From a candidate division CPR2 bacterium GW2011_GWC2_39_35 (GTDB taxonomy: Bacteria; Patescibacteriota; CPR2), in NCBI GenBank assembly GCA_000995065.1, contig LBWX01000005.1, positions 1 through 59,021 on the forward strand: DNA of 59,021 nt, written 5' to 3'. The notes under the pieces were generated by a model. It was not told where the DNA came from, did no database searches, and saw nothing but the letters and a program-made list of their open reading frames with translations. The position numbers and the translations under genes were made by a program. Positions within the stretch are counted from its first letter, which is position 1. Every line of letters begins with the position of its first letter. This document shows positions 21,681-36,645 of this stretch, one piece after another.

Positions 21681-22129
21681 AAATCCTCTTTTTTAATTTC
21701 ATCTAGCTCCCGCATCAACTCTTCCTCTGAAATTTCATAATCGTCTTCTTTCCTAATATTATGCTCTTTAATTATCTCCTCTAGTTCTTTCATTCTTTTA
21801 TCAATTTCAATAACCTTTTTTGCTTCTAGCATTTTTCCCGCCAAAATTGCCAAGCAGTTAGCTATTTTAACATCCATACATCCGTTTTCATCAACCTGCC
21901 TTACCCTATTTATAGTGTCTGTAAGCAATGTAAAAACCAATTCGGGGCTTGAGAGATCTAACGGGTCTAAAAGCACCGTGTTGCCCTTATAAGACACACT
22001 CCCGCCTTTTCTAGTAGCTTTTAAGTGTTCACCCTTAACTCTGGGGTTATGTGAAAAACAAAATTGTTCACCAATCATTGCTTTGGCCTTACACCTTGAA
22101 CCATTTTTAATTATTTGTTTGCATTCCAT
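21677..22129 (-). CDS. Small protein with N-terminal Cys-Cys-Cys-His zinc finger
   Basis: 150 residues. The N-terminus CKQIIKNGSRCKAKAMIG.. then FCFSHNP has the spacing C-x7-C-x10-C-x3-H. This is a small zinc finger often seen in phage and mobile-element proteins next to terminase-like or integrase genes. The remainder is helical and ends in an acidic coiled coil (ELEEIIKEHNIRKEDDYEISEEELMRELDEIKK). It overlaps the Ntn-hydrolase-like gene by 4 nt. A DNA-binding regulator or recombination accessory factor is plausible but not shown. Confidence 0.7.
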   Translation of the reverse strand: MECKQIIKNGSRCKAKAMIGEQFCFSHNPRVKGEHLKATRKGGSVSYKGNTVLLDPLDLSSPELVFTLLTDTINRVRQVDENGCMDVKIANCLAILAGKMLEAKKVIEIDKRMKELEEIIKEHNIRKEDDYEISEEELMRELDEIKKEDL

Positions 22130-22197
22130 AGTTATGATTTTATCATAACTTAACTAATGGGGGTCTACTTAAGGCTTAATTAGAAACAGGCTAATAG

Positions 22198-23499
22198 CTA
22201 ATCTACTTCAGGAAATTCCGATTCATGAAAACTTATGCTTTGGAGATTGCTAAACCAACCCAATTTCTTTGCATCTTCCATTATTGCTTCTTCAGTTTGC
22301 GTATCAAAAGGAGTGAGATTTTCATCTAATGCAAATTTAAACTGTTTCATCTTGTTAGTCGTCGCAATCACTATCATTTTTTCTATTTTATATCCGTTAT
22401 AAACGTAAAAACTGTCCATTGCTAACTCAATAAGAGTATTTACATTTTCCTCGTCCATCTCTGATGGATAAAAGAAAAACGTAACCCCCACTCCATCAAC
22501 ATCACCACTAAACCTTCGTGCAACCATGTTCCCGTAACAATTTTGGTATTTGTCAAAAAAATCAAAGAATGACTTGGCGAGACTTCTTCTTGCAAGTCGA
22601 TTAAATGATAGAAGCTCTTGCGCAATCTTATCGCCCATCTTATTATCGATATTTGTAAGAACCTCTCTTGCAACTAGTTCATCAATAAAATAACTAACCT
22701 TGTTTTCATTTTTCTTTAGCAATACCTGTTTATGAGTAGTAAATTCATTCCACGCACCATCTAACTGAAGAGAAAGCGCATCATATTCATCTGATGATAA
22801 TAAATCAGGAAATTGATGCTCATTTCTTAGATAGGTAGCTAATAAATCACACTCCGAACCAGAAATGAGAATTTGTTTTTTCTCATTATTACGATTAGAC
22901 GTATAATCGAAAAATTGTTTTGCTGTCGCCTCATCAAAATCATATTCGTCTTTCGGTAATATCAAAACATCGGAATTATTAAAAACTAGACTCTTTTTCT
23001 CTAGATACTCTATGAAATCAGGAATCGTGTCAAGCTCAGAAACGATTGTAGAAAATGTTTCCTTATCAAAAACATGAATAAATTTACCTTCCTTTGAAAT
23101 TCCAGAAAATGGATAGAACTGAACTGCTTCTGCCAAATGAACGACAACTCGAAAGACTCTTTTGATTTTACTCTTATTAATCTTTTCAGTTGGCCTATCC
23201 GGATGCTTTATATAAATTTCGGTTTTATTTGTCAGCTTGCGCTCTGCACCATTGATTTGGTTAATATCCTTTTCAATAGTTTTCCTAAAATACCTTTTGT
23301 AGTCGTCTTTAAAATCACAATTTTTAACACAAAAAATTATTATGGTATCTTTGAAGATAATGAGCAAATCACAAATCTCTTTTTTATCACCGTTTTCATC
23401 TTTAGGATTAGGATAACACCAATATTTAAGAAATGATTTATAGGCTATCTCATTGGCAAATTTTTCGCCAATTTTACCTTTTTCTGTCTGTTCTTTCAT
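22198..23499 (-). CDS. Nuclease-like protein (PD-(D/E)XK/NERD-type N-terminus, tentative)
   Basis: 433 residues, no membrane segment. Residues 7-60 (GKIGEKFANEIAYKSFLKYW, then KKEICDLLIIFKDTIIIFCVKN) follow the pattern of restriction-endonuclease-like domains: a Glu-containing helix, E-x-CD-LLI strand, then a strand ending in x-x-K. The usual acidic residue before the Lys is Val here (CVK), so the site may be altered. The C-terminal 350 residues are not recognised. Position in an integrated element suggests a defence or maintenance role, which is inference. Confidence 0.5.
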   Translation of the reverse strand: MKEQTEKGKIGEKFANEIAYKSFLKYWCYPNPKDENGDKKEICDLLIIFKDTIIIFCVKNCDFKDDYKRYFRKTIEKDINQINGAERKLTNKTEIYIKHPDRPTEKINKSKIKRVFRVVVHLAEAVQFYPFSGISKEGKFIHVFDKETFSTIVSELDTIPDFIEYLEKKSLVFNNSDVLILPKDEYDFDEATAKQFFDYTSNRNNEKKQILISGSECDLLATYLRNEHQFPDLLSSDEYDALSLQLDGAWNEFTTHKQVLLKKNENKVSYFIDELVAREVLTNIDNKMGDKIAQELLSFNRLARRSLAKSFFDFFDKYQNCYGNMVARRFSGDVDGVGVTFFFYPSEMDEENVNTLIELAMDSFYVYNGYKIEKMIVIATTNKMKQFKFALDENLTPFDTQTEEAIMEDAKKLGWFSNLQSISFHESEFPEVD

Positions 23500-23589
23500 T
23501 TCCCCTTTCTCATCATCTCATCTCGATTAGAATTAACGTAATAAGTCTTTTATTTCTAAAGTATCCGCTCTTTTTTAAAAAATTTTCAA

Positions 23590-24987
23590 TCAAGCCAATT
23601 GCTTTAGCTCACTTAACTCCCCTTTAAAATTCTCAATATTCATCATTATTTTCTTTCTGGCTTCGGCTTTACCTAAAGGCAATTTATTAAAGAAAAGATT
23701 AGCGAACCTATTATTATTTGGCAGATCAGCGGCGGCTATCAGCTGATCGAGAAAAGCATCGAAATTTAAAATCTCTTTCTTTTGCTGACTGTTGTGCCGC
23801 TTAATACTCAGAATCAGTTGAACTCCCTCTTCTCTGATTGACCTATCATGGGCTCCAACCGACAAAACAAACGTTTCCATAAAACCGCTCCTCTCATACT
23901 CGAGCAATCGTTTATTTCCTAAAGAATGATCTATTTCATCCAATAGTAGGTTATGAGTGACAATAGTAATGAACTTCAGTCTTTCTCCTTTTAATTTACC
24001 ATCCTGAACCATTTGAGCTAGCATAAAGCTAATTCTAATTATGCTTTCATTTATCCTATTTGTAATTAATTTTACTTCTTCCTTAATGGCAACATGAGAT
24101 ACGTCTTCTAGAAAAAATAAAAGGTCACAAAGCAGATATTCAACAAATGGTTCTTTGTCTTCATCTTTGACATCTTTATGCGATAATATTCGCCCCACAA
24201 TTGCATTTGAGTTGAAACCATAATAGTCTTTATCGCCAGAAACCTTTTTGGTTAACGATATTACAGAAGGATGAGCAGTATAAAGCAGCCCCCTTTTTCC
24301 GATTATTGGAGTCACCACAACATTTACAAGAGTTGCCAAACACTCATCAAATAAATTATGATCCCTATTCTTTATTGCTTTCTGCAAAACCGAATGAAAT
24401 TCCCGAATCATTTTGATATATGTCCATGACCCAATTACATTGGATTTTTGATACTCCCTAATCATTTTTCGATAACCAAATAAACCAAATTTACTAGCAT
24501 ATAAACTGATTATTCGAGAGGTATTCAAATGAGTTACCACAAAAGAAATAAACAAAACGCTATATCCCACAGATAATACTGCGGATTTTAAAGAAAGTAA
24601 TAGATTTCCTTGCAATAGGCCATAAACTGAAACAACAAGCATAGCGATAGCGGCTACCCAATATAAATATTTCCAGGCAAAATATCTAACAAAATTTAAA
24701 GAGGTGTATTCTACTCCTTCAACAAGCAAGAGAAATGAAAGTGGTATTAGCAATGACGTCAGGACAAAAGATGCATTAATAATTATGCTTCCAGTAGTTA
24801 ACATTTGACCGTTATCAAAGAAATTTCCAAACTCGATAAAAGGCGCATTAACAAATAGTAATAAGATAGCAATGAATGGTAGCAGTTGCCATGTGTTGCT
24901 TACAAGCCAAAGAAAATAGCTTATAATCTCTTCGATATTAAATGGTTTTTCTTCAACCTTCTCCCTTCCCTTTGTCTCCATTACCAT
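23590..24987 (-). CDS. Membrane protein with long cytoplasmic helical domain, function unknown
   Basis: 465 residues. About five hydrophobic segments lie in the first 155 residues (for example LLPFIAILLLFVNAPFI, ASFVLTSLLIPLSFLLLVEG and YLYWVAAIAMLVVSVYGLL). A roughly 300-residue mostly helical region follows, which looks cytoplasmic. No motif is recognised. Its neighbours in the element are two more membrane-anchored proteins (25004-25471 and 25634-26344), which suggests a joint membrane function. There is a 90-nt gap to the nuclease-like gene downstream. Confidence 0.65.
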   Translation of the reverse strand: MVMETKGREKVEEKPFNIEEIISYFLWLVSNTWQLLPFIAILLLFVNAPFIEFGNFFDNGQMLTTGSIIINASFVLTSLLIPLSFLLLVEGVEYTSLNFVRYFAWKYLYWVAAIAMLVVSVYGLLQGNLLLSLKSAVLSVGYSVLFISFVVTHLNTSRIISLYASKFGLFGYRKMIREYQKSNVIGSWTYIKMIREFHSVLQKAIKNRDHNLFDECLATLVNVVVTPIIGKRGLLYTAHPSVISLTKKVSGDKDYYGFNSNAIVGRILSHKDVKDEDKEPFVEYLLCDLLFFLEDVSHVAIKEEVKLITNRINESIIRISFMLAQMVQDGKLKGERLKFITIVTHNLLLDEIDHSLGNKRLLEYERSGFMETFVLSVGAHDRSIREEGVQLILSIKRHNSQQKKEILNFDAFLDQLIAAADLPNNNRFANLFFNKLPLGKAEARKKIMMNIENFKGELSELKQLA

Positions 24988-25003
24988 AGATAACCCTTTC
25001 CCA

Positions 25004-25471
25004 TCAAATAGAACTGTGACTTAACAGTCTTATGATATAAGATTCGTCACTTTGTTTTTTAATGAGGACTTTAGACTGAAATTTCTTACCTTGTATGTTC
25101 TCATAATTTAATATAATCCTAGCCTCATTGTTTGGCTCCATCTCAAGGACTAAAGGAAAAGTATAAACATCACAGCCCGATGAAATTGTTTGTGTGGCTG
25201 TCAAAGATCCGACATAAGGAACAAGAATATTGGTGAAATCAGCACTACTTACAATTGTAGCTCCTCTTGCAGACCAATTTATCTTCTTGGCGGTGTCGCG
25301 CCCAATATTACGAATCCTAATATATGGAGAATCATGTTCAAGAGTTAAAACTGGTGTCTGTCTATCATCTAAAGCCTTTTTCGCAGTTCGAGCCGATTTG
25401 ATTGCATATATTGCTGAAATTACGGCAGCAAATGTTGCGATAGAAGTAATAATCAGAGCAGTGTCATCCAT
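25004..25471 (-). CDS. Single-pass membrane protein with a beta-sandwich-like domain
   Basis: 155 residues. I use the ATG at 25471: AAGGAGG lies 7 nt upstream of it, inside the longer in-frame extension to 25495. One N-terminal helix (ALIITSIATFAAVISAIYAI, about 4-23) is followed by a basic linker and a beta-rich domain. The segment VLTLEHDSPYIRIRNIGRDT resembles the start of immunoglobulin-like repeats in bacterial membrane proteins. Function unknown. It belongs to the membrane-protein group of the integrated element. Confidence 0.65.
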   Translation of the reverse strand: MDDTALIITSIATFAAVISAIYAIKSARTAKKALDDRQTPVLTLEHDSPYIRIRNIGRDTAKKINWSARGATIVSSADFTNILVPYVGSLTATQTISSGCDVYTFPLVLEMEPNNEARIILNYENIQGKKFQSKVLIKKQSDESYIIRLLSHSSI

Positions 25472-25633
25472 CAAAGACCTCCTTAGTAGCATCATTAATG
25501 ATTAATTTATCGCATTATAAGCCAGAATTAGGTATTTCTCAAGATATTGCTATTCATATTTAATTATCATCTTATGCAAAACGTTTCAGATCAAAGAGGA
25601 AAATAAACCCTCGAGTAGCAAGTAATATTTTGA

Positions 25634-26344
25634 TTAATTAATCATGAAAGTATTTGATCTTAATATAGTGCTTCCCTCATTTGCACAAAGAACTGCTAAG
25701 TCCTGAATTTTTGTCTGATAGACGTTAAAGCGTGTGCCATCGCCTGTTGCGAATTCAATAAACGGAACGATAACACTATCCTTTTTAGGTATCCCATTAG
25801 TTCTATATTCGTATTTGTTGTTCATACGAAAAATGCAATTAACCCAATTTTTGTCCTCATTGTTATCGATTTTAAATGCCACAGTGTTATAAGTAACTTT
25901 AGTATCTAAATCCTTGGTTTCTTCTGCTATTTTTGCTTTTTCCTCTTGATCCTTTTGAGATTTAACCTTGGCTTCTTCTTCTCTTTTCTTCTTATTTTCC
26001 TTTTCTTGTGCTTCCCTAACAATTCTTTCAGCCTCATTTTTCTGTTTAGCAACTTTATAGTTATTATTTAGCCTGATAAACCAAAAAGAAGAAGCAATTA
26101 AAGCCAGGACTACTAATGAGGTAATAAGTATAACTTTATTTTTCTTAACGGGAACTTTTTTATTAACAAACCATATAGTTAAAATGCAGAGGAGAACTGG
26201 CCATAAATAGTAAGCGATTACCGAGTATATCGAAACAACTAAAAGGAGTGGAATTGGTCTTTGGGGAAGTTTAAGTTTTCTTAGTAATTCATTTTGTTTT
26301 TTAGAGGTTAATGAAACATTATTTTCTTTTGATTCTTCAGACAT
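25634..26344 (-). CDS. Two-helix membrane protein with a charged coiled coil
   Basis: 236 residues. Two hydrophobic stretches (about 33-61 and 71-90) are followed by a highly charged coiled coil (about 95-147, rich in KEEAK-type repeats). A C-terminal globular part (about 148-236) contains two Cys (NCIFRMNNKYEY and VLCANEGS). A strong AAAGGAGG sits 5 nt before the ATG. The layout is an N-terminal anchor with an extended stalk. No family is recognised. It is the most upstream minus-strand gene in the element's run and is divergent from the XRE regulator. Confidence 0.65.
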   Translation of the reverse strand: MSEESKENNVSLTSKKQNELLRKLKLPQRPIPLLLVVSIYSVIAYYLWPVLLCILTIWFVNKKVPVKKNKVILITSLVVLALIASSFWFIRLNNNYKVAKQKNEAERIVREAQEKENKKKREEEAKVKSQKDQEEKAKIAEETKDLDTKVTYNTVAFKIDNNEDKNWVNCIFRMNNKYEYRTNGIPKKDSVIVPFIEFATGDGTRFNVYQTKIQDLAVLCANEGSTILRSNTFMIN

Positions 26345-26458
26345 AGTCCTCCTTTAATTAAAGGTATTGTGTTTTCCTTAACGATAGCACAAAAAAGGCC
26401 TCAAAACAACAAGCTGTTTATGGTATTTTCTGCGCATTTCCCTACATACTGTTAGGAT

Positions 26459-26689
26459 ATGAGGACAAAAGAACCGAAATTTCTAAGAGATTTTGGAGCA
26501 AGAATAGCCGAAATAAGAAAGCAAAAAGGTTATACTCAAGAAAAACTAGCTTATGCTATTGGCGTTTCTCCAACTTATATCGGATTTATTGAACAAGGAA
26601 AAAGAAATCCCACCATTTTGAATATCCAAAAGATTACTAAAGCTCTGGATATAAGTTTAAAAGAATTGTTTTCTCCGTTTGGTAAATAG
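26459..26689 (+). CDS. XRE-family transcriptional regulator
   Basis: 76 residues, essentially one helix-turn-helix domain. GARIAEIRKQKGYTQEKLAYA is followed by IGVSPTYIGFIEQGKRNPT, the scaffold and recognition helices, then LNIQKITKALDISLKELF. It is the only plus-strand gene in the element, divergent from the membrane-protein genes, so it probably controls them or itself. CATACT ends about 8 nt before the ATG with no Shine-Dalgarno, consistent with a leaderless message. Confidence 0.9.
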   Translation: MRTKEPKFLRDFGARIAEIRKQKGYTQEKLAYAIGVSPTYIGFIEQGKRNPTILNIQKITKALDISLKELFSPFGK

Positions 26690-26717
26690 ATACTAATCCA
26701 CTATTTAAATTTCATTC

Positions 26718-26741
26718 AAAAAAAGAGGCCTTTTGACCTCA
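26718..26741 (-). terminator. Terminator between convergent 26459 and 26773 genes
   Basis: Stem GAGG/CCTC with inner partial pairing and seven T on the minus strand. It lies 32 nt past the stop of the minus-strand gene. Confidence 0.6.
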
Positions 26742-26772
26742 ATGACAATATCTTGTTTAATTACAGTTAAAC

Positions 26773-26988
26773 CTAAAACTGTTGATTAAACAGACTACCC
26801 CTTCCTTCCTTGAACGAAATATGATGTCTGCCCTCATTCAGATTGACCACCTTTCCATCTGTGTCTAATACTTGTCCGTCCTTTAAGTTCACAAGCCTCA
26901 CATCATTTCGATCTTGATTATCTCTAACAGTTTGCAAATGGTTTGCTAAATCTGCCAAATTGTTTTGTTCGTTACCTCTAATACTCAT
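26773..26988 (-). CDS. Small protein of unknown function
   Basis: 71 residues, hydrophilic. The first half is Asn/Gln/Asp-rich and helical (NEQNNLADLANHLQTVRDNQ). The second half has beta-hairpin-like repeats (LVNLKDGQVLDTDGKVVNL). TATTCT ends 6 nt before the ATG, and a terminator follows. Last gene before attR. No function can be assigned. Confidence 0.55.
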   Translation of the reverse strand: MSIRGNEQNNLADLANHLQTVRDNQDRNDVRLVNLKDGQVLDTDGKVVNLNEGRHHISFKEGRGSLFNQQF

Positions 26989-27187
26989 GACTAGAGAATA
27001 GCAAATAATTTAATTATTTAAAAGACTAATGATAGTTCGAAAAAAATTAGCTTATTAAATATAATTGATTCACAATCTGACACTAGCCAAATTATTATCC
27101 TTTATCCCCTTTCGATCTTCGAGAAAGTCTGGCACTGAAAAGTTAAATTGTTTTACCGCCTCTATATTTTTTAATATAGATGAGTAT

Positions 27188-27218
27188 AGTTCGAAAATAT
27201 TTACCTTAGCTCCACCAA
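27188..27218 (+). repeat. tRNA-end-like repeat copy A, including attR
   Basis: AGTTCGAAAATATTT, then ACCTT, then AGCTCCACCAA. The last 11 bases equal the end of ssrA and form attR. The left part aligns with the other copies (AGTTC-x-AA). A hairpin (TTTTCGCC, GTGA, GGCGAAAA) follows at 27219-27238. Confidence 0.7.
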
Positions 27219-27488
27219 TTTTCGCCGTGAGGCGAAAAATGTCCTTCCGAAGCTTTATGCGAAGGAGGACTGCCCGATTTAAAAATAAAGTTTAGCAAAT
27301 GGCTTCAAATGGCAAGCCAAAATAGAGTGATTTTTATTTTCGCTAAAGCTATCCACCCTCCGTTCCGACAAGTCGGAACTTCGGAGGACAAGCAAATGGC
27401 AAGCCAAAACTTTGGCGCAGGATGGTGAATAAAAACATGTGTACAGGCACATGTTTTTATTTTTGCCAAAAAAGAATAAAATAAGTTT
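27219..27488. other. Leader region between attR and the GIY-YIG gene
   Basis: No gene is present. It holds in order: the hairpin at 27219-27238, an imperfect palindrome around GTCCTTCCGAAGCTTT (27241-27270), the words GCTTCAAATGGCAAGCCA (27303-27320) and CAAATGGCAAGCCA (27391-27404), a second palindrome (TCCGACAAGTCGGA), and a terminator-like hairpin AAAACATGTG/CACATGTTTT (27430-27459). The palindrome and the GCTTCAA-x-TGGCA word recur before the GIY-YIG fragment at 33146 and after tRNA-Val (50.3 kb). Confidence 0.6.
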
Positions 27489-27725
27489 ATGTATTATGTA
27501 TATCTTCTTAAACTTTCAAATGATGACTTCTATGCGGGATCAACGAAAGATTTAAAATCTAGATTTGAAAAGCATAAAAGTGGCGAGGTTCCTCACACGG
27601 CAAAGTTTAGACCTCATAGATTGGTTTGGTATGCAGCATTTGAAACAAAGGAAAAAGCTGCACAATTTGAAGATTATCTCAAAACCGGATCAGGCAAAGC
27701 ACTTAGGAATAAAAGATTGGTTTAA
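27489..27725 (+). CDS. Single-domain GIY-YIG endonuclease
   Basis: 78 residues, the whole protein being one GIY-YIG domain. The first strand is YYVYLLKLSND and the second motif DDFYAGSTKDLKSRFEKH has the catalytic Arg; the conserved Tyr sites are present. The C-terminal FEDYLKTGSGKALRNKRL contains the metal-binding Glu. Small standalone GIY-YIG proteins of this UvrC-like group are common in CPR genomes and their job is not settled. Broken copies occur at 33146 and 39756. No Shine-Dalgarno is obvious. Confidence 0.9.
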   Translation: MYYVYLLKLSNDDFYAGSTKDLKSRFEKHKSGEVPHTAKFRPHRLVWYAAFETKEKAAQFEDYLKTGSGKALRNKRLV

Positions 27726-27745
27726 CAGCTTTTTAGGGCTGTTTT

Positions 27746-27788
27746 CTAGTTTTCGTCAAAATCAGCTTCATTTCGAGAACCGGTCCCT
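27746..27788 (+). repeat. Partial copy of the GAGGGACCGGTTCT-type miniature element
   Basis: CTAGTTTTCG, AATCAGCTTCATTT and GAGAACCGGTCCCT match the right half of the 96-bp element at 37533-37628. Only one end is found here. Confidence 0.6.
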
Positions 27789-27867
27789 AAGCCCCTGTAA
27801 AGAGAGAAGGCCTGGCTGCGAGTATACACACATTTGTTAGAGTTACAGGCTTTCTTTAAAACTTTTT

Positions 27868-27897
27868 GCCTAACGGCTCATTGTGTAAGCGTTAGGC
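27868..27897. repeat. attC-like hairpin 1
   Basis: GCCTAACG/CGTTAGGC arms (8 bp) with a 14-nt interior. An extra G and a further GCT/AGC pairing give a bulged stem. The arms match the R-type core of integron attC sites (RYYYAAC...GTTRRRY), but the site is half the minimum usual attC length. Confidence 0.45.
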
Positions 27898-28138
27898 TGC
27901 TGCGCCTTATCCGGTGACTAGAGATGTCTTGTGGACGTTGGCTCCGCCGCTTATGTTCGATGCCCTCGATTTATGACCGACTGATGAGTTGACGAAAGCC
28001 GCAAAGTCTTGCGTGCTTTGTGTACGCAACATGTCTGGAATAGGTTTCATGTGAGTCCCTTCGTGTGTCATGAAGATTTAAAGGCCGTCAATTTGAACTG
28101 TCAAGAATTGTATATTCTCATTATTGACGTGGCGAAGT

Positions 28139-28166
28139 GCAGCCTAACGCAAAGGCGTTATGCTGC
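28139..28166. repeat. attC-like hairpin 2
   Basis: GCAGCCTAACGC, AAAG loop, GCGTTATGCTGC: a 12-bp stem with one mismatch. GCAGCCTAACGC is also the reverse complement of bases just right of hairpin 1 (27889-27900), so the two hairpins bracket about 240 bp with matching arms. Confidence 0.45.
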
Positions 28167-28691
28167 CGGTTGCAGATACGGTCCAGAGCTAATCACAAAT
28201 GATAATGCAAAGAAAGTCTTAAGCCTTTCTTTTTCACCCTCATAGCTCCTGCAAGCTTATATCAGCTTCGCTCTCAACTGATACTACTTGAAACTGAGAT
28301 CCAACCCCAGTCTTCCCATGATCTGCTTAAATCGGGGCGATGATTCGGTTTCTCGGTTCGTGCTGGGCGCCCTGTGAAACTAGTGAAGCTTGGTGAATCT
28401 GGTTCAAGTTTAGGTTCGTGGAAACCTCGGCCGGTAAAACTATGCCATAGAGACATCCGGCTATCACATCGTGGTTTGGATGTGGTTGATCTCCGAACCC
28501 ATGTCCATCCGTTAAAAAAATGACCTTCACCCCCTTTGTCCGTAATATGTTTATATGTGTTTCAATGTATTGCCGCGTTTATTTGTTAATCATGCAAGGA
28601 TAGCATCCGTCTAGTAGTAACTAATGATAAATAATACTAGCGCTTGTTTGGCTCTAAGTCAACATTTTTGTTAAGCATTTGTGCTAAATAT

Positions 28692-29417
28692 GGGGACGGT
28701 TCTCTTTTAAATACACAATTACACTTTTTATAACCTCCATGCTATTATCTATATATGCCTAGACCACCAAGACTTCTTTTATCTCAAAGCTACTATCACA
28801 TCATGACTCGCGGCAATAACCGCAATACTGTTTTTGAATGCGATGAAGACTTTGAGTATTATCTGGAACTCATTGAAAGATTTAAAAAAGATCATCCTTT
28901 TGACCTCTATCACTACTGTCTTATGTCTAACCATGTTCATTTTCTAATTAAAACCAATAAAGCAACGGACTTTTCTAATTTTATGAAGCGGTTGAATCTT
29001 GCTTACTTTCATCACTACCGCAAAACTTACGGCTGGGTAGGCCATTTCTGGCAGGATAGATTTAAAAGCCAACCTGTTGGCAAGGACGAATACTTTATTC
29101 AGTGCGGCAAATACATTGAGTTAAACCCCGTAAGAGCCGGAATAGTTAAAAATCCGGAAGACTACCGATATTCCAGTTATTCTTATTACGCAATGGGTAA
29201 AAATAATCCATTACTCACAAAAGACATGTTCTATGATAACTTAGGCAGAACCCGAATAGAAAAAATGAAAAGCTACAGCAACTTAAGTTTTGACGATATT
29301 ATTACAAGTAGTTATTCCGAAAATATTTGGGGCTCAAATAAGCAAAGATACAGAGAGCAAGACAAGATCAACCGAAAACAAAAAGTGTAAAACCCCGATT
29401 GATTGAGAACCGTCCCC
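28692..29417 (+). mobile_element. Y1-transposase element with 13-bp inverted ends
   Basis: GGGGACGGTTCTC at the left and GAGAACCGTCCCC at the right are perfect inverted repeats. Subterminal TACACTTTTT-type and AAAAAGTGTA-type words add to the symmetry. Inside is one Y1 transposase gene. The structure is that of REP-associated (RAYT/IS200-like) elements. A 135-bp internally deleted copy lies at 36646-36780 in the opposite orientation. Confidence 0.8.
28755..29390 (+). CDS. Y1 (HUH) transposase, REP-associated type
   Basis: 211 residues. It starts PRPPRLLLSQSYYHIMTRGN and contains the HUH metal motif NHVHFLI at about residue 54. The catalytic Tyr lies in KYIELNPVRAG at about 125, followed by the DYRYSSYSYY segment typical of RAYT proteins. 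It makes single-strand cuts at hairpins in its element ends. TATTAT ends 6 nt before the ATG, so it is probably leaderless. The length is complete, so it may be active. Confidence 0.92.
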   Translation: MPRPPRLLLSQSYYHIMTRGNNRNTVFECDEDFEYYLELIERFKKDHPFDLYHYCLMSNHVHFLIKTNKATDFSNFMKRLNLAYFHHYRKTYGWVGHFWQDRFKSQPVGKDEYFIQCGKYIELNPVRAGIVKNPEDYRYSSYSYYAMGKNNPLLTKDMFYDNLGRTRIEKMKSYSNLSFDDIITSSYSENIWGSNKQRYREQDKINRKQKV

Positions 29418-29499
29418 CAATCCTCTTCGTTGGATCGTACCGAAAGCCCTTTTTTTCCAAATAATTTTTGATGTCATAGTATGTATGATTATTTACCAT
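29418..29499 (-). pseudogene. Possible N-terminal gene fragment cut by the Y1 element
   Basis: From an ATG at 29499 the minus strand encodes about 27 residues (VNNHTYYDIKNYLEKKGF..) running straight into the right end of the Y1 element. No matching continuation was found left of 28692. It could be the start of a gene interrupted by the insertion, or a chance frame. Confidence 0.3.
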
Positions 29500-29567
29500 G
29501 ATTGGATTATAACCAAACATTAGTGGTATTTAAATGGCGCATTTCTTACTGCTTGAGTCCTTATAAA

Positions 29568-29599
29568 AGTTCCAAACCTGTTCCACTATGCTCCACCAA
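29568..29599 (+). repeat. tRNA-end-like repeat copy B
   Basis: Begins AGTTCCAAACCTGTTC and ends CACTATGCTCCACCAA (32 nt); preceded by TCCTTATAAA, shared with copy C. The CTCCACCAA end equals that of ssrA. A terminator (29602-29629) follows directly. Confidence 0.8.
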
Positions 29600-29601
29600 T
29601 T

Positions 29602-29629
29602 AAAAAATGGCTTAATGAAGCCATTTTTT
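29602..29629 (+). terminator. Terminator following repeat B
   Basis: 12-bp stem AAAAAATGGCTT/AAGCCATTTTTT with a 4-nt loop (AATG). Confidence 0.85.
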
Positions 29630-29664
29630 AGTTAGAACACCCAACTTTTTACTGATAAAAACTA

Positions 29665-29693
29665 TTGACAAATTTGCATAACTTGTGTACAAT
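29665..29693 (+). promoter_or_regulatory. Strong sigma-70-type promoter for the 29799-30367 genes
   Basis: TTGACA (29665-29670), 17-bp spacer, TACAAT (29688-29693). A leader of about 100 nt follows before the first ATG. Confidence 0.75.
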
Positions 29694-29798
29694 TTACTGT
29701 TGCTGTATTGATCTGCAATTTGAAAATTGATAGCCTAGCGCTAAAACATATAAATATAGAAATGGTAATCACAAACGAAATTAAAGGAGACTGAGTTT

Positions 29799-30020
29799 AT
29801 GGGACTGCTAGAAAACATGCGTCTTAAGAACGAAAATGACCTTGGAAATGCGGTGGCAATCCTGACGAGTGGAATCCCAGGGTCAATCATAGCTTTACAA
29901 CAAGTCCTTCGAGTAGACCCCGAAATGGCTCTACAACTAGACCAGAGAGGTGTTTACGATGGTGAGATCCACGAGATCTTCATCAAATGCGAAGGTAACG
30001 CGGAAGAGTTCATCTGCTAA
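29799..30020 (+). CDS. Small soluble protein of unknown function
   Basis: 73 residues, acidic. A helical N-terminal half (ENDLGNAVAILTSGIPGSIIALQQVL) leads to a short C-terminal part with two Cys (FIKCEGNAEEFIC). AAAGGAGA lies 9 nt before the ATG, and a consensus promoter lies 100 nt upstream. Expression is therefore likely even though the function is unknown. The next gene (30080) follows in the same direction after 59 nt. Both sit between repeats B and C as one cassette-like unit. Confidence 0.7.
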   Translation: MGLLENMRLKNENDLGNAVAILTSGIPGSIIALQQVLRVDPEMALQLDQRGVYDGEIHEIFIKCEGNAEEFIC

Positions 30021-30079
30021 GTTCATGTATTAGGACTTCACGATTCGATAACTGTCATCTGAAATTGGAAGGAATTAAA

Positions 30080-30367
30080 ATGAGTACATTCAAGTGGACA
30101 GTTTTACTATCAAAAGACACGGCAATCCCCACAGAACTTTTCCCCGTTGGAGGTGATAATGGGCCAGTTATCTGGTGCCAGAACCCTCAACTCTCGGGAA
30201 ACGTAGCCAATGCAATGAACGCCCAAGAAGCAAATGATGACCTGCAGCTCTTACTAACCGCAGCAGAGGTCGCCATGACTTCTGATGGCGAAAACCGAGA
30301 TAAGGCCATTAAAGTCTACGAGACGCTCAAGGAACGCTATAACTCCAAGACTTTCACTGGTCGATAA
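30080..30367 (+). CDS. Small protein of unknown function
   Basis: 95 residues. The first half is beta-rich (STFKWTVLLSKDTAIPTELF). The second is helical and repeats-like (DDLQLLLTAAEVAMTSDGENRDKAIKVYETLKERY split across two helices, resembling one TPR unit). GGAAGGAAT lies 6-7 nt before the ATG at 30080, which sets the start; an in-frame ATG at 30065 has no such site. It shares the promoter at 29665 with the preceding gene. No family is recognised. Confidence 0.7.
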   Translation: MSTFKWTVLLSKDTAIPTELFPVGGDNGPVIWCQNPQLSGNVANAMNAQEANDDLQLLLTAAEVAMTSDGENRDKAIKVYETLKERYNSKTFTGR

Positions 30368-30445
30368 CTATGCCCATCAACCTGCTCAGATGAAAACGGT
30401 CCCCTATTTCCTAACCAAAAATACACAGTCTAAAGGAATGCCGAA

Positions 30446-30508
30446 ATGAAATCGCAGGTAGCTAAAGGAAAACTTCTTAAAACAAGCCTCAGACCTAGTC
30501 AAGAATAG
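30446..30508 (+). CDS. Possible 20-residue peptide
   Basis: ATG preceded by AAAGGAA at 11 nt; sequence MKSQVAKGKLLKTSLRPSQE, basic. It follows the two small genes and precedes their terminator. It is too short to judge. Confidence 0.25.
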   Translation: MKSQVAKGKLLKTSLRPSQE

Positions 30509-30530
30509 TAAACATGAACCACATCACCGA

Positions 30531-30576
30531 GCCGATGAAACTTGATTTATCAAGGATTAATCGGTTCTTTTCTTTT
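30531..30576 (+). terminator. Compound terminator of the 29799-30367 unit
   Basis: Outer stem CCGAT/ATCGG with an inner perfect hairpin CTTGAT/ATCAAG, then TTCTTTTCTTTT. Confidence 0.7.
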
Positions 30577-30618
30577 ATAAGAATATAAACAGGGACTAAG
30601 GGAATTGATCCTTATAAA

Positions 30619-30650
30619 AGTTCCAAACCTGTTCAACCATGCTCCACCAA
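30619..30650 (+). repeat. tRNA-end-like repeat copy C
   Basis: Differs from copy B at two bases within 32 nt (AGTTCCAAACCTGTTCAACC, then ATGCTCCACCAA). The preceding CCTTATAAA is also shared. It is followed by a weaker hairpin TTGGCTTTATTAAGCCA (30661-30677). Confidence 0.8.
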
Positions 30651-30669
30651 TGCCTATATTTTGGCTTTA

Positions 30670-31036
30670 TTAAGCCATTTTCAATATTTTGTTTAAAGCG
30701 TATACTATAATTTCTTTTGGAATTGATTCTAAGGAATCCCCATTTATATTTAATTGTCCGACAATTTGTATCTTCTCCTGAAAGACAACTGCATGAACCA
30801 CAGTGATTATCAGAAGCCTCAGTTCCGAGGATGTCTTCAATCATTTCACCGTTAATTATTATGGAATTTGATTGTGCCATATCTTTGGCTTCAAGTTTGG
30901 TCTCCATATATTCAACTTTAACATTTTTTGGTAATTCCTTAATCGCTAATTGAATATTCTCACCTGTGTTATTACACCTTGTGCAGGTTTCGCCCTCTTT
31001 ATCGTAATGTTTCCATTCAATTAGTATTTTCTTCAT
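30670..31036 (-). pseudogene. DUF2703-type thioredoxin-fold-like protein, frameshifted near its C-terminus
   Basis: The N-terminal 100 residues match the DUF2703 pattern: KILIEWKHYDKEGETCTRC, a CxxC-type pair, SNSIIINGEMIEDILG, then CGSCSCLSGEDTNCRTIKY. After TIKYK one extra T at about 30741 shifts the frame. Dropping it restores GDSLESIPKEIIVYALNK and a TAA at 30670-30672, the normal family ending. As written, the open frame instead runs on through repeat C to 30596. TATAAT ends 5 nt before the ATG. It could be a recent mutation or a sequencing error. The family is probably a redox or metal-handling protein. Confidence 0.75.
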
Positions 31037-31057
31037 ATTGGATTATAACACGCGGTA

Positions 31058-31110
31058 TAGTCCAACTTGCCTCACTAGACTTTATTAAATGGCTTAATAA
31101 GCCGTTTTTT
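31058..31110 (+). repeat. Degenerate repeat copy C' with terminator
   Basis: AGTCCAACTTGCCTCACTAG aligns with the left part of the repeat with small gaps. The CTCCACCAA end is missing, but the typical hairpin ATGGCTT/AAGCCGTTTTTT follows at 31089-31110. It separates the DUF2703 gene from the next gene. Confidence 0.5.
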
Positions 31111-31162
31111 ATATATCATTATTAATATTTGGTTTATAATTTAAAACATAATAGGAGAAAAA

Positions 31163-31852
31163 ATGAAAACAAAATTAAACTTAAATTCAGGTGTCGCACT
31201 ATTCACCTCGGTTTTAACATTACTCACTTTAATTCTTGCCTACAACACTCCTCCGCTATCAGGACCTTTTTGCCGAGCAGCAAGTTGCTTTCAATATCCA
31301 TATCTTGATATTGCTTCAAGATTTCCTAGAGATTATTACTGGATGGCTCCAGCGATGGGCATCGTCGTTGCCTATTTGATTTTAATGCTAATTTTAAGTA
31401 ATCGAACTGAAGCAAAAAAGAAATTATTCGGACAGCTTACTGTCATTTTTGCTTCAATGTCCACGGCTATTTTTCTATTAACTTTCTTTACTCAATTATC
31501 GGTTATTCAACCAAGCCTTTTAAAGGGTGAAGCAGATGGAATTTCTCTCTTAACGCAATTTAATCCTCACGGCCTATTTATCGCCCTAGAAGAATTGGGA
31601 TTCTTGCTTATGGTAGCTTCTTTTCTTTTTGTTGGTTTAGCAATGACGGTTAAAACAAGATTGGAAAAATGGATTAAAGGAATATTCATCGGAGGTTTTG
31701 CCTTAACGATACTTTCATTAGTTATAATTCTTGCAACTATGGGACTAAACAGAGAGTATTTCTTTGAGGTTGCTGCATATAGCCTTACTTGGCCTACACT
31801 AATCATTAACGGCTTCCTTTTATTCAAGTTATTTAAGAAAGACCAGGCATAA
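31163..31852 (+). CDS. Multi-pass membrane protein of unknown function
   Basis: 229 residues with about six hydrophobic helices: residues about 10-27, 61-78, 90-112, 132-158, 168-192 and 204-224. A conserved-looking extracytoplasmic loop (FCRAASCFQYPYLDI) carries two Cys near the first helix. AGGAG lies 6 nt before the ATG. It is bounded by repeat C' upstream and repeat D downstream, a single-gene unit. The overall layout resembles DUF4386-type membrane proteins, but I cannot confirm it. Confidence 0.7.
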   Translation: MKTKLNLNSGVALFTSVLTLLTLILAYNTPPLSGPFCRAASCFQYPYLDIASRFPRDYYWMAPAMGIVVAYLILMLILSNRTEAKKKLFGQLTVIFASMSTAIFLLTFFTQLSVIQPSLLKGEADGISLLTQFNPHGLFIALEELGFLLMVASFLFVGLAMTVKTRLEKWIKGIFIGGFALTILSLVIILATMGLNREYFFEVAAYSLTWPTLIINGFLLFKLFKKDQA

Positions 31853-31887
31853 ATTTGGTCTAAATCAAATCGGATTTAAACTATAGA

Positions 31888-31919
31888 AGTTCCAAACCTG
31901 TTCCACTATGCTCCACCAA
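31888..31919 (+). repeat. tRNA-end-like repeat copy D
   Basis: Identical to copy B over all 32 bases. It is followed by the hairpin AAAAATGGCT/AGCCATTTTTT (31926-31952). It lies 35 nt after the stop of the 31163 gene. Confidence 0.85.
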
Positions 31920-31925
31920 GATAAG

Positions 31926-31952
31926 AAAAATGGCTATGTTAAGCCATTTTTT
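31926..31952 (+). terminator. Terminator following repeat D
   Basis: Stem AAAAATGGCT/AGCCATTTTT with a 6-nt loop and T tail. Confidence 0.8.
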
Positions 31953-32027
31953 AGTTAAGACTAAGGGGCCTTAATAAATTAAATAAGCCACTGAAAAACC
32001 ATCGACTGCTTCTTTATCATCTTGAAA

Positions 32028-32825
32028 CTACTTTTTTAACGGAATATTAACCTCTCTTGAATCGTTTCCAAATGTCTGGAGATTGATTTTTCCTGGCTCA
32101 AAAGTTAAAATAGACCAGCTAAGCGCCGGGGTATTATCACCAATATTTTCTACCAAAGACTGTAGGGTGATATAGGGAATATTATTATGATAATTCAGTT
32201 TATACCAATGGTTATGAGCGCTAATTACTGCCACTACTTTGCCAGAATCCTCTAGAACCTTTCGGACTTCGGCTCTATTTTCTGTCAAACCAAGTTCTGG
32301 CCGTTCTTCGAACCAAGGATTCCCTTCAAATGACTGGTCGTCAACGGGATAATGAGCGAAAATAATGACCGGCTTTTTAGATTCTTTCAGTTCTTTCTTT
32401 AGCCAGTCTAGCTGAGCGATACCAACCCGAGCCAAAAAATTATGCATTCGCCGTTCAGAAAAAAGAACGACACATTTGTAGCCATCACAATCAAAAGAAT
32501 AAAAAAGATGATCAAGTCCAAGCCAAAACCGAAGATCTTCGTCACCTAAAAAAACCTGATCATGGTTCCCGATAACATGGTAAGTTGACTGAGGTAATTT
32601 CTTAAATTCATTTAAAGCATCTTGGTAATTCTTCGCATCCGTTTTGTAATCCTGTTCTTGAATAAGATCGCCAAGCTCAACAACAGCATCAATGTCAGTC
32701 ATCTCGCTAACTTTATTGATAAACCTTTTTAGCTCAGACTCCGAGTGACGTGAGAGCTTTAAGATTTTTCCCTTAAACTCTTTTTCCGGCCCGATATGAA
32801 CATCTGCTATAACTGCAACCTTCAT
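32028..32825 (-). CDS. Calcineurin-like metallophosphoesterase
   Basis: 265 residues, soluble. Two-metal site motifs are in order: IADVHIG (residues 6-12), ELGDLIQ, VIGNHDQV, FAHYP and SAHNHWY, all with their Asp, Asn and His residues. The overall pattern is that of CpdA/Icc-type cyclic-nucleotide phosphodiesterases or related enzymes; the substrate cannot be read. TAAAAT ends 7 nt before the ATG with no Shine-Dalgarno. It runs against the neighbouring genes as a single-gene unit between repeats D and G. Confidence 0.85.
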   Translation of the reverse strand: MKVAVIADVHIGPEKEFKGKILKLSRHSESELKRFINKVSEMTDIDAVVELGDLIQEQDYKTDAKNYQDALNEFKKLPQSTYHVIGNHDQVFLGDEDLRFWLGLDHLFYSFDCDGYKCVVLFSERRMHNFLARVGIAQLDWLKKELKESKKPVIIFAHYPVDDQSFEGNPWFEERPELGLTENRAEVRKVLEDSGKVVAVISAHNHWYKLNYHNNIPYITLQSLVENIGDNTPALSWSILTFEPGKINLQTFGNDSREVNIPLKK

Positions 32826-33145
32826 AAAAATAATTTTAGCATATTAGGCAAATCATGTAAGTGCTATTTCCTCATGGGATATAAATAATTATCTAATTTA
32901 TACCGTTCATACTCAGAACTTAGGATTGTTCTCCATCCTCACACCTCCTCCAAGATTGAGTGCAAATTATTTCTGAGGAGCTCCACCATTTTACGCAACA
33001 GGCAGAAAATGCCCTCCCGTCCTGTCCGTCGTAACTTTAGTGAAGCTGGAAGCTTTGGCGTAGAAGGGCTAGTTTGTAGAATCAACGAAGCTCAATCTTG
33101 AGGCTTCAACTGGCAGGTCAAAAGATTTACTGCTAGAATATACAC
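32826..33145. other. Gene-free stretch with copy G and relics of the GIY-YIG leader
   Basis: Besides repeat copy G (32959-32988), it contains TTTTACGCAACAGGCAGAAAATG, aligned in pieces with the hairpin after copy A, a diverged GAAGCTTT-type palindrome, and GGCTTCAACTGGCAGGTCA (33102-33120). The order matches the leader before the intact GIY-YIG gene at 27489. Confidence 0.55.
32959..32988 (+). repeat. tRNA-end-like repeat copy G
   Basis: AGTGCAAATTATTTCTGAGG then AGCTCCACCA. The left part is closer to copy A than to copies B-F, and so is the sequence to its right, so A and G form a subgroup. Confidence 0.6.
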
Positions 33146-33241
33146 ATGTTTTATGTGTATATTTTGTTATTATCGAATAGCAAGCATTACATAGGCCAGA
33201 CCGAGGACTTAAAGAAAAGGAGAGAATATAATGAAGAATAA
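33146..33241 (+). pseudogene. GIY-YIG nuclease fragment (first 31 codons)
   Basis: MFYVYILLLSNSKHYIGQTE then DLKKRREYNEE and stop. This is the N-terminal half of a GIY-YIG domain (YVYIL..., YIGQT.DLKKR), cut off where the methyltransferase gene begins. Its LKKRR codons (AAGAAAAGGAGA) now serve as the Shine-Dalgarno of the methyltransferase. Confidence 0.8.
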
Positions 33242-33920
33242 AACAGATATAGCGATTGAAGCATATGATAATGTAGTAGATGAATATATCGAATACTTTA
33301 AATCAAAAGATTTGAAAGGTAATGTTCAGTTTCAAAAAGAAATTGATTATGTTGTTTCTAAATTACAAGATAAAGCCTCCATATTAGATATGGGGACTGC
33401 TATAGGAGATTACCCTAAATTTTTAACGGAAAAATGTAACAAAGATTTTTATGTAGTTGGCATTGACTCATCCCCAAATATGTTAGAAAAAGCCAAAACA
33501 AATACACCAAAAGCAAATTTTGAGTTGATGGATATTAGAAAGTTAGGCTTTAAAGAGAAAAGTTTTGATGCAATTATTTGCTTTGCTATCTTGACATATG
33601 TAGATGATGGAGATTGTCTAATTGTATTAGATAAAGTTGATAAAATATTAAAGGATGGCGGAATGATAGCTATCAATGCATTAGAATTCAAAGATGGCGA
33701 CCAAAAAGAAATGATAATTCCTGAACCATTTAATCCCAAATACAACAACTACTATAATCGCTATACAAAACAGTTTTTTATAAATTATTTTAATAAGAAG
33801 AATTATGAAATTTTAAATTTTTATGATAATCCAATATTTAGTTCTGAAAAGGCAGGAATTTTTAGTACAGAAAATCAATTTTCAATAATAGTTAGGAAGC
33901 AGTTCGCCTCAAAAGGTTAG
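33231..33920 (+). CDS. Class I SAM-dependent methyltransferase
   Basis: 229 residues. Rossmann motif I is SILDMGTAIGDYPKFL (about residues 45-60). The acidic motif II is VVGIDSSPNML, a motif near ELMDIRKLGF follows, and post-I/III FDAIICFAILTYVDDGD completes a class I methyltransferase. A C-terminal beta part (PEPFNPKYNNYYNRYTKQF) would define the substrate. The substrate is unknown. AAAAGGAGAG precedes the ATG, borrowed from the GIY-YIG fragment. The gene is notably A+T-rich compared with its left neighbour. It is closed by repeat E. Confidence 0.85.
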   Translation: MKNKTDIAIEAYDNVVDEYIEYFKSKDLKGNVQFQKEIDYVVSKLQDKASILDMGTAIGDYPKFLTEKCNKDFYVVGIDSSPNMLEKAKTNTPKANFELMDIRKLGFKEKSFDAIICFAILTYVDDGDCLIVLDKVDKILKDGGMIAINALEFKDGDQKEMIIPEPFNPKYNNYYNRYTKQFFINYFNKKNYEILNFYDNPIFSSEKAGIFSTENQFSIIVRKQFASKG

Positions 33921-33983
33921 GCCAGCTTAAAAAAATAGAAAAATTCTCTTTTCGCCCCTTCGAAACGGCATTTAACTTATAAA

Positions 33984-34015
33984 AATTCCGAACCTGTTCA
34001 ACTATGATCCACCAC
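33984..34015 (+). repeat. tRNA-end-like repeat copy E
   Basis: AATTCCGAACCTGTTCAACT then ATGATCCACCAC. Five or six differences from copy B; the CTTATAAAA preceding it is shared. A hairpin-like TATTAAGCCATTTTTT run follows (34037-34050). Confidence 0.7.
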
Positions 34016-34086
34016 GTCCTTATTAAATCGCTCTATTAAGCCATTTTTTATATTGATATTTCTTAACTTATTGGTAAAATGAAATT

Positions 34087-34857
34087 ATGAATTTTAAAGA
34101 AACGGCCCTAGAAGCAGCTATAGCTGGCGGTAACATCTTAAAGAAACAGTTTGGAAATATTGAAAGTATTCAAGCCAAGGCAGCGCATGATATTGTTTCG
34201 AGCGCTGATTATGCGTCGGAAAAAGAGATTCGAAGAATAATTGAATCGGCATATCCCGAACATAATGTTGTAGGCGAAGAGACGGGAGATAACAATAAAG
34301 TCTCTGAATATTCATGGATTATTGACCCACTTGATGGAACATCGAATTTCGTTACAGGTAATCCATACTTTTCTGTTTCTATCGCATTAGCTTTTAAAAA
34401 CGATGTTATTCTAGGTATTGTCTATAATCCAATTTTAGATGAAGTATATTTTGCCGAAAAAGGTAAGGGATCATTCCTAAATGACAAGAGAATATTCGTT
34501 TCAGATGAAAGAGATCTTAAGAATGCTCTCCTGGGCTCTGCATACTCTCCTTTAGAAGAAAAAATCAAAAGTGGTCTAAAGGATGTCGAAAAACTGTCCC
34601 TAAAATCTCGAAAGGTAGTCATAAATTTTTCGCCTGCGCTAGACCTCTGCAATATAGCAAGAGGTAGAATACATGGATTATTTGATAACGGCACAAGACC
34701 TGAAGACCATGCAGCAGGAAGCTTGATATTAACTGAAGCAGGCGGTAGAGTTCAAAATTACAATTCAGATTCTTGGGACATCAAAAAGATTGGGATAATA
34801 GCTTCGAATGGTAAATTACAAAGTTCGATTATAAATGTATTAAAGTCAGACGATTAA
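34087..34857 (+). CDS. Inositol-monophosphatase-family phosphatase
   Basis: 256 residues. Metal-site motifs are VVGEETG (about residues 63-69), WIIDPLDGTSNFVTG (about 79-93) and RPEDHAAGSLILTEAGG (about 203-219). In the last the usual WD pair is ED, keeping the Asp-equivalent acid. The family dephosphorylates inositol phosphates, fructose-1,6-bisphosphate, PAP or histidinol phosphate; the substrate cannot be told. TAAAAT lies 6 nt before the ATG, leaderless type. It is a single-gene unit between repeats E and F. Confidence 0.88.
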   Translation: MNFKETALEAAIAGGNILKKQFGNIESIQAKAAHDIVSSADYASEKEIRRIIESAYPEHNVVGEETGDNNKVSEYSWIIDPLDGTSNFVTGNPYFSVSIALAFKNDVILGIVYNPILDEVYFAEKGKGSFLNDKRIFVSDERDLKNALLGSAYSPLEEKIKSGLKDVEKLSLKSRKVVINFSPALDLCNIARGRIHGLFDNGTRPEDHAAGSLILTEAGGRVQNYNSDSWDIKKIGIIASNGKLQSSIINVLKSDD

Positions 34858-34880
34858 ACAATAATACCCAGCAGAGTAAT

Positions 34881-34912
34881 AGTTCCAAACTTCTTTCACT
34901 AAGCTCCACCAA
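34881..34912 (+). repeat. tRNA-end-like repeat copy F
   Basis: AGTTCCAAACTTCTTTCACT then AAGCTCCACCAA. It lies 24 nt after the stop of the IMPase-like gene. A hairpin AAAACT...AGTTTTTT follows (34911-34936), with a sequence unlike the others. Confidence 0.75.
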
Positions 34913-35005
34913 AAACTCATCACGAAAGTGGTAGTTTTTTGATTAATGAATCGCACATTTAACAAGCAAAAGTGTTATAATGCCTTATGTTAAAAGGGGT
35001 TTATT

Positions 35006-35314
35006 ATGAATAAAGAATTACTGCTTAAAACTTTCCGAAATACATCCGGCGCTGCCGTCTATATGTTTCTAGTTTCTCAAGTTATGCAAAACGGATCGAA
35101 ATTGTTCGGAGAAAAAGATAGTATGTTTACTCCCCTTGTTGTTTTGCTGCTATTTTCACTTTCTGCTGCTGTTGTTGGCGGGCTTGTATTCGGACAATCG
35201 ATTATACTATTTCTTAACAAAAAGAACAGTGAAGGCATTAAAGCAGCTATTTACAGCATCGGTTGGCTTGGAATCTATACAGTGCTCGGATTACTGCTAT
35301 TACTCATTGTATGA
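35006..35314 (+). CDS. Small three-helix membrane protein
   Basis: 102 residues with three hydrophobic helices (about 16-25 weak, 41-72 and 80-102) and a short charged loop (NKKNSEGIK). AAAAGGGG lies 8 nt before the ATG. No family recognised. It is the last gene of the repeat-separated region; no repeat copy closes it on the right, though a possible fragment of the Y1-element end lies at about 35371. Confidence 0.65.
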   Translation: MNKELLLKTFRNTSGAAVYMFLVSQVMQNGSKLFGEKDSMFTPLVVLLLFSLSAAVVGGLVFGQSIILFLNKKNSEGIKAAIYSIGWLGIYTVLGLLLLLIV

Positions 35315-36402: not shown

Positions 36403-36645
36403 TCTTAATCGCCTCCTTAAGGCCCATAACTACATATGCATATTTTTATCTGGGACATCCAGGTTATTTTTCAAAGAACCTAAAACAAAGCATATTCTAA
36501 CACAATAATAGGCATCTGTGAAGGGTTTAGTCTTAACCTTTATCTGACATAATGTTTCCTAGATATTAATATCCGGTCCTCGCTAGCTATAAGCTTAAAT
36601 GACTTCTTTCTAAGTCAAACATACATGATACCAACAAGAGAGTAG

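Follow-up and report, generated by a model that had tools for sequence, protein, structure and literature searches.

Putative gene cassettes with a shared attachment site behind ssrA of a CPR2 bacterium and behind tRNA genes of other Patescibacteria

Additive flexible genomic islands at tRNA genes are on record for Alteromonas as well as for marine bacteria with streamlined genomes (Ca. Actinomarinales, PMC7771536; Alteromonas, PMC4119200; Methylophilaceae fGI-2, PMC10872708), and tRNA-targeted additive cassette islands as such are already known. Little is understood about gene acquisition by the ultra-small Patescibacteria, the genomes of which comprise about 1 Mb. Here, a row of repeats and intervening genes behind the tmRNA gene ssrA of the candidate division CPR2 bacterium GW2011_GWC2_39_35 (assembly GCA_000995065.1) was analyzed. 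It lies on contig LBWX01000005.1, of which the stretch from position 1 to 59,021 is called the window in the following. The genes between the repeats are very probably cassettes that were inserted site-specifically at tRNA/tmRNA 3′ ends. The joint interpretation, that such cassettes were inserted and that a large serine recombinase (LSR) was the enzyme, is moderately probable judging from the sequences.

The array and its relatives in other Patescibacteria share with the additive islands the small cassettes at a tRNA gene, a direct repeat of the tRNA 3′ end for each cassette, a strain-variable content, and exchange across genera. An RNA gene forms one border with the cassettes 3′ of it, in most arrays each cassette has a direct repeat of the RNA-gene 3′ end, which is shorter than the repeats in the literature, and a conserved locus has different contents in the genomes G341, G101, and G152. 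However, the repeat of the known islands is a piece of the tRNA, e.g., the last 20 nt of tRNA-Lys (PMC7771536, PMC4119200, PMC10872708), whereas the patescibacterial sites combine a match of 6–10 nt to the tRNA with a separate arm of about 22 nt that is kept across classes and targets. Furthermore, a tmRNA gene is used as a target, and LSR elements share the site. The SCC and ECC elements (CcrAB, PMC6222049) are similar in that LSRs act at a single chromosomal 3′-end target, att sites lie in a row, and cargo without a recombinase is possible, but their target is rlmH and the ECC elements have sizes of 21–78 kb (PMC6222049), in contrast to the patescibacterial cassettes behind tRNA/tmRNA genes, which hold a single gene and measure about 0.9 kb.

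Integrons and CALINs (PMC11389934) are also rows of small cassettes closed by a recombination site, with an integrase nearby or not. The present arrays differ from them by the lack of an attC fold, of attI, and of an adjacent IntI, by genes in both orientations, and by the RNA-gene end as the target. No integron integrase was found by the window array, and the two tyrosine recombinases of the host (PF00589) are encoded on other contigs. The window array is not an integron, and the term "integron-like" holds as an analogy only. Tycheposons, as summarized in PMC10872708, likewise consist of cargo inserted at tRNA genes of streamlined genomes, but they are reported to have the tyrosine recombinase XerD and to span 4–200 kb, whereas the cassettes here are small and do not contain a recombinase. 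A tyrosine recombinase, which characterizes tycheposons, was not detected in the window, the PF00589 matches being on other contigs only, and among the arrays only one (in G275) contains such a gene. The open-licence literature that was searched contained nothing on such arrays in Patescibacteria. The arm that is conserved across classes together with a core that follows the target, the tie to LSRs, the tmRNA target, and the lineage appear to be new.

Sites and cassettes behind ssrA

The sites designated B to F all have the same orientation (+ strand) and lie between positions 29562 and 34911. Each site reads TATAAAAGTTCCAAACCTGTTCCACTAT-GCTCCACCA or nearly so; over 32 nt, D matches B at every base, and C deviates at two bases. 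A regular expression for degenerate sites turned out to be too noisy, and a profile model was used in its place. It was built from 35 sites and applied with a threshold of at least 12 bits. Sites B, C, D, E, and F scored 33.0, 28.9, 30.0, 26.9, and 26.6 bits, respectively, and the next-best place in the window reached 4.1 bits. In a background of 600 kb order-1 shuffled sequence, the best score was 8.9 bits, and no match reached 12 bits. Many of the scored sites had gone into the profile, and thus, their scores are no independent evidence; the independent evidence for the site family comes from the shuffle control and from the location behind tRNA genes. The core GCTCCACCA occurs seven times on the + strand of the window, compared with an expectation of 0.23. 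When up to 3 mismatches were allowed, the pattern was found in the entire genome (1.12 Mb) only at B, C, D, and E, and neither this search nor the model search revealed sites of the B–F type elsewhere in the genome. The features of the array are as follows:

18930..19309, + strand: ssrA (tmRNA), the target gene (ARAGORN; Rfam RF00023, 1.5e-57)
29562..29598, + strand: site B (33.0 bits)
29603..29628, + strand: terminator-like hairpin that adjoins B on the right and belongs to the right arm of the following cassette
29599..30612, unstranded: cassette B–C with small open reading frames (ORFs) at 29799-30020 and 30065-30367
30613..30649, + strand: site C (28.9 bits)
30596..31036, − strand: DUF2703 gene, the C-terminal end of which reads through site C (Pfam, 5.8e-26)
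31056..31079, + strand: C′, a truncated site without core but with retained hairpin (identified by eye)
31163..31852, + strand: membrane protein gene (ORF)
31882..31918, + strand: site D, equal to B over 32 nt (30.0 bits)
32028..32825, − strand: calcineurin-like phosphoesterase gene (Pfam, 1.7e-15)
32959..32988, + strand: G, core and weak AGTGCAAAT motif only
33231..33920, + strand: methyltransferase gene, preceded by a GIY-YIG remnant (Pfam, 1.8e-17)
33978..34014, + strand: site E with the core GATCCACCA (26.9 bits)
34087..34857, + strand: inositol monophosphatase (IMPase) family gene (Pfam, 4.1e-57)
34877..34911, + strand: site F, which ends the array and has a terminator-like hairpin behind it (26.6 bits)
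35006..35314, + strand: presumed ancestral neighbor gene of ssrA (tblastn, 71% over 87 aa, 1e-29, orthologue in G006)

A preliminary description of the stretch, made from its sequence, had proposed at least seven copies of a unidirectional repeat plus a degenerate copy C′. The repeat proved to be real, with a single orientation, and B to F as well as the truncated C′ stood. In contrast, A (27188..27217) and G are not copies of it: both are below the model threshold, and they share the core GCTCCACCA but have an unrelated inner arm, with only a weak motif (AGTTCGAAA and AGTGCAAAT, respectively) at the same register, 21 nt before the core. It had also been stated that all well-preserved copies end like ssrA. 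The last 9 nt of ssrA (19301-19309) are indeed GCTCCACCA, the core common to the full sites, but E ends with GATCCACCA. As reported, B, C, D, and E each have a hairpin on their right side that resembles an intrinsic terminator. The earlier statement that the junctions are not palindromic attC sites was borne out, as no attC-like hairpin is conserved across arm and core; where a site has a stable hairpin at all, it is located right of the core. Between the sites, one or two unrelated genes are present in both orientations, and Pfam agreed with the contents described before, i.e., two small ORFs, a DUF2703 protein, a membrane protein, a phosphoesterase, a methyltransferase, and an IMPase-family enzyme. 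Genome-wide scatter of the repeats, the outcome that had been named as speaking against a cassette array, did not occur, and the repeats are confined to the array.

Sites of the same family and variable cargo in other Patescibacteria

With the profile model, about 60 distinct sites of at least 12 bits were found in the fetched loci of about 20 Patescibacteria from several classes. The sites of this family consist of a conserved arm of about 22 nt (AGTTC..AAC.TC.TC...AT) and the last 6–10 nt of the upstream tRNA or tmRNA gene, and the target genes are ssrA and the genes for tRNA-Phe, -Pro, -Leu, -Ala, and -Met. An exact pattern was found in only two (G006 and G150) of 84,980 genomes, apart from three matches in coding sequences that were judged to be due to chance, and a scan of viral_contigs for sites gave no match. 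The use of TATGCTCCACCA alone as a site marker was rejected as unspecific, the matches that were checked outside the genomes with real sites lying in genes or in ordinary tRNA ends.

Arrays behind ssrA are present in three further genomes. In G006, which belongs to the class of the host, two cassettes lie behind ssrA, first one for a P-type ATPase and then a PQ-loop/SWEET-like one, and each is closed by a site; the contigs C25 and C18 were read as adjacent because their ends overlap by about 130 nt. Three further arrays lie elsewhere in this genome. In G150, ssrA is followed by a methyltransferase gene, a site, and two more sites, and in G030 by two sites. In the class of G375, a site match was found in 17 of the 45 genomes, and arrays lie directly behind tRNA-Phe (G275, G292, and G179), tRNA-Pro (G275), and tRNA-Leu (G152 and G388). 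In most arrays, the core equals the end of the nearest upstream tRNA/tmRNA gene on the same strand over 6–10 nt. For example, the sites behind tRNA-Phe of G275 end with CCACCA and those behind tRNA-Pro of the same genome with CGACCA, while the arm is similar.

Although the core is a tRNA 3′ end and the right flank is often an intrinsic terminator, a role of the repeats in regulation or as signals at the RNA level (tRNA-like ends, terminators, or promoters), unrelated to recombination, is hardly credible. The arm stays constant while the core changes with the upstream tRNA, the genes have both orientations, LSR elements end in the same type of site, and a conserved locus has a differing cargo among relatives.

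The latter was revealed by a 665-aa gene right of the G152 array, which was traced through its family to a conserved locus in G341 and G101. In G341, the family member begins 34 nt past tRNA-Pro, and the locus is nearly empty. In G101, which belongs to the same genus as G152, the gene begins 391 nt past tRNA-Leu, and the interval contains two 21-nt copies of the tRNA end. The distance between this tRNA-Leu and the gene is about 9.8 kb in G152, where two sites lie between them; to the right of the last site, about 230 nt pass before homology with G101 begins again. The additional 21-nt copies of the tRNA 3′ end in G101 (L264, tRNA-Leu c2792-2877), about 148 and 166 nt apart and with no gene between them, may represent a small non-coding element at the tRNA end.

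Cargo was also found to be shared. G152 and G375, which belong to different genera, have in common a cassette of three genes (NUDIX, M23 peptidase, 274 aa) with 89.8% identity over 2129 nt, while the alignable pieces of the flanking gene match at 73–84%. Five genomes have an M23 peptidase gene next to sites, a radical SAM gene is similarly placed in two classes, and a gene of 112–122 aa behind tRNA-Phe matches at 90% between G275 and G179. The gene right of F (35006-35314) has its orthologue (71%) right of the ssrA array of G006. No relative was found in which ssrA directly adjoins this orthologue, and therefore, the ancestral order of the two genes is only presumed. Taken together, the check proposed in the preliminary description, whether intervals differ among relatives while the repeats stay, had a positive outcome, which supports a cassette array made by a tRNA/tmRNA-end-targeting enzyme. 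The sites recur with other cargo at ssrA in the three other genomes and at tRNA-Phe, -Pro, and -Leu in another class, and relatives have near-empty loci.

The 28 site-to-site intervals have a median length of 887 bp and contain mostly single unrelated genes. Such intervals might also be the remains of whole elements with their own integrases that entered ssrA one by one and then shrank to one or two genes. The truncated sites C′ and E would fit such a history, and the intact LSR element upstream of the array indicates that full elements do enter at ssrA. Nevertheless, this origin is improbable. Nearly all of the 28 intervals (median 0.9 kb) are devoid of recombinase remnants and have intact ends on both sides, which weakens it because deletions would need to halt at site ends repeatedly, and the cassette shared by G152 and G375 is without an integrase in both genomes.

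In the preferred interpretation, the window array would be a row of small non-autonomous cassettes that entered by site-specific recombination where ssrA ends. A single attachment site would be present on a free cassette, composed of the arm of about 22 nt (AGTTCCAAACCTGTTCCACTAT) and a core that repeats the final nucleotides of the target gene (GCTCCACCA), often with a terminator right of the core. Recombination in the core beside ssrA would keep the RNA gene whole, place the terminator of the cassette behind ssrA, and leave arm and core at the far end of the cassette. Each new cassette would thus enter beside ssrA, and older ones would be pushed away. We infer a circular intermediate and this order of insertion, as well as the identity of the enzyme discussed below. 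Tentatively, and with less confidence than for the insertion as such, the arrays may belong to a general gene-capture system of Patescibacteria that is analogous to integrons but based on LSRs, in which single-gene, one-arm cassettes without an integrase are added in trans behind tRNA/tmRNA genes and the core is retuned to the end of each RNA gene. A recognizable site family would make it possible to locate genes of recent acquisition across thousands of such genomes and to name hot spots (ssrA, tRNA-Phe, -Pro, and -Leu).

Candidate enzymes of the cassettes

The recombinase closest to the array belongs to a putative element between ssrA and A:

19270..20919, − strand: LSR gene, 549 aa, with a 3′ end that overlaps ssrA (Pfam Resolvase, 4.2e-22; Recombinase; Zn_ribbon_recom)
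19310..27217, unstranded: putative integrated element of about 7.9 kb that encodes the LSR at one end, ssrA to A, with GCTCCACCAAT at both ends
19392..19401, + strand: AGTTCGAAAA, an exact direct copy of the arm-A motif, 83 nt past the ssrA end (10/10 match, 0/300 shuffles)
27188..27217, + strand: A, putative attR that would close the LSR element on the right; the core and AGTTCGAAA have their usual register, but the inner arm differs
27218..29561, unstranded: interval A–B with a GIY-YIG gene (27489-27725) and an IS200/Y1 transposase gene (28755-29390) (Pfam)

The serine recombinase noted before at ssrA is thus confirmed by its Resolvase, Recombinase, and Zn-ribbon domains, and the region 19310-27217 is probably an LSR integrative element with an att core at both ends. 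As a candidate for the enzyme of the cassettes, the serine recombinase fared differently at the level of the family and at the level of the window. LSR elements of two other genomes end in a site of the B–F type, but the idea that the LSR adjoining ssrA is evidently the enzyme for B–F is not supported, as the inner arm at the right end A of its element differs from theirs.

LSR genes at tRNA ends are common in the class of the host. In G013, tRNA-Met (GGGCCCACCA) is followed by an LSR gene with a split reading frame, six more genes, and then a family site with the core GGCCCACCA. The distance from the LSR to the site is 6 kb, the core match comprises 9 nt, and the site scored 24.0 bits with the family model. 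In G198, tRNA-Ala (GGTCCACCA) is followed by an LSR gene, a Rep-like gene, a KsgA/Erm-like gene, and then a site with the core GGTCCACCA (4.4 kb from LSR to site, 9-nt core match, 27.7 bits). No further full copy of the core was found inside either element. Read most simply, these LSR elements have the site as their right end, and their LSRs would therefore recognize the family arm. Because LSR elements at both tRNA-Met and tRNA-Ala end in a family-type site, the most likely enzyme of the cassettes is an LSR that acts in trans. G013 and G006 each have an LSR at tRNA-Met; the two LSRs share 54% identity, and the arms of the sites closest to them are almost the same. A copy of GGGCCCACCA that would bound the G006 element was not found. 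LSRs that accept many tRNA-end cores via one arm would be useful tools.

In the G198 element (L199), the Rep-like gene is accompanied by a member of the rRNA adenine dimethylase family (KsgA/Erm-like), and the arm motif AGTTCCAACA is repeated exactly and in direct orientation about 93 nt past the tRNA-Ala end. In both this element and that of the window (AGTTCGAAAA), the copy of the arm motif falls inside the end of the LSR gene. A second copy of the arm motif is not general in the right flanks of cassettes, and exact copies were seen in these two LSR elements only.

Several observations weigh against cassette insertion by an LSR. In addition to the different inner arm at the end A of the window LSR, sites are present in G001 and G004 without an LSR match. 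No convincing center of dyad symmetry, as might be expected for an LSR attP or a Xer site, was found across arm and right flank or around the core. An LSR attL is normally no partner for attP, and stepwise growth of an array by an LSR would therefore require its specificity to be relaxed, as in SCC. Some arrays seem to be old and degraded (C′ and E), in the arrays on contigs C3 and C9 of G006 the nearest tRNA shares only 5–6 nt with the core, and a tyrosine recombinase gene is located inside the tRNA-Pro array of G275.

This last gene (L189:12439-13242) is full-length, of the XerA/integron-integrase kind, and situated between two sites. The same cassettes might thus have been moved in trans at tRNA ends by such a tyrosine recombinase, similarly to the tycheposon enzyme. 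Some tyrosine integrases reportedly cross over at the very 3′ end of tRNA genes, and relatives of the G275 enzyme with 57–58% identity are encoded in G002, G128, and G359, the G359 copy adjoining tRNA-Ser. However, no sites lie near the relatives in G128 and G002, the G275-type enzyme is present in 3 of 42 genomes of its class compared with sites in 17 of 45, and Xer is the only tyrosine recombinase of G006, the genome richest in sites. In view of this distribution, a tyrosine recombinase is rather unlikely to be the enzyme, and an LSR in trans remains the preferred candidate.

A second tyrosine recombinase (about 291 aa; L240-L256, G000 C1) was found in almost every member of the class of G375 that was tested. 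In several genomes, it is syntenic near an ftsB-like gene and trpS, and in most members the first catalytic arginine and the histidine of HxxR are lost while the tyrosine is kept. It was rejected as the enzyme, as its catalytic arginine and histidine are mostly lost and it has a fixed chromosomal place that does not track the arrays.

Neighboring elements

A and G are followed by a similar GC-richer stretch (27218-27725 and 32989-33230, respectively) and a GIY-YIG gene, which is intact after A and a remnant after G. A and G possibly represent a second, GIY-YIG-linked kind of tRNA-end element. The methyltransferase gene at 33231-33920 matches the PADLOC model mad2 over the methyltransferase part (6.6e-14), which probably reflects a common fold only. 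The IS200/Y1 (TnpA) gene is flanked by repeats of the GGGGACGGTTCTC type (28692-29436), and such repeats are also paired at 36627-36785, 7 kb away. TnpA and these repeats resemble a REP-associated transposase with its repeats.

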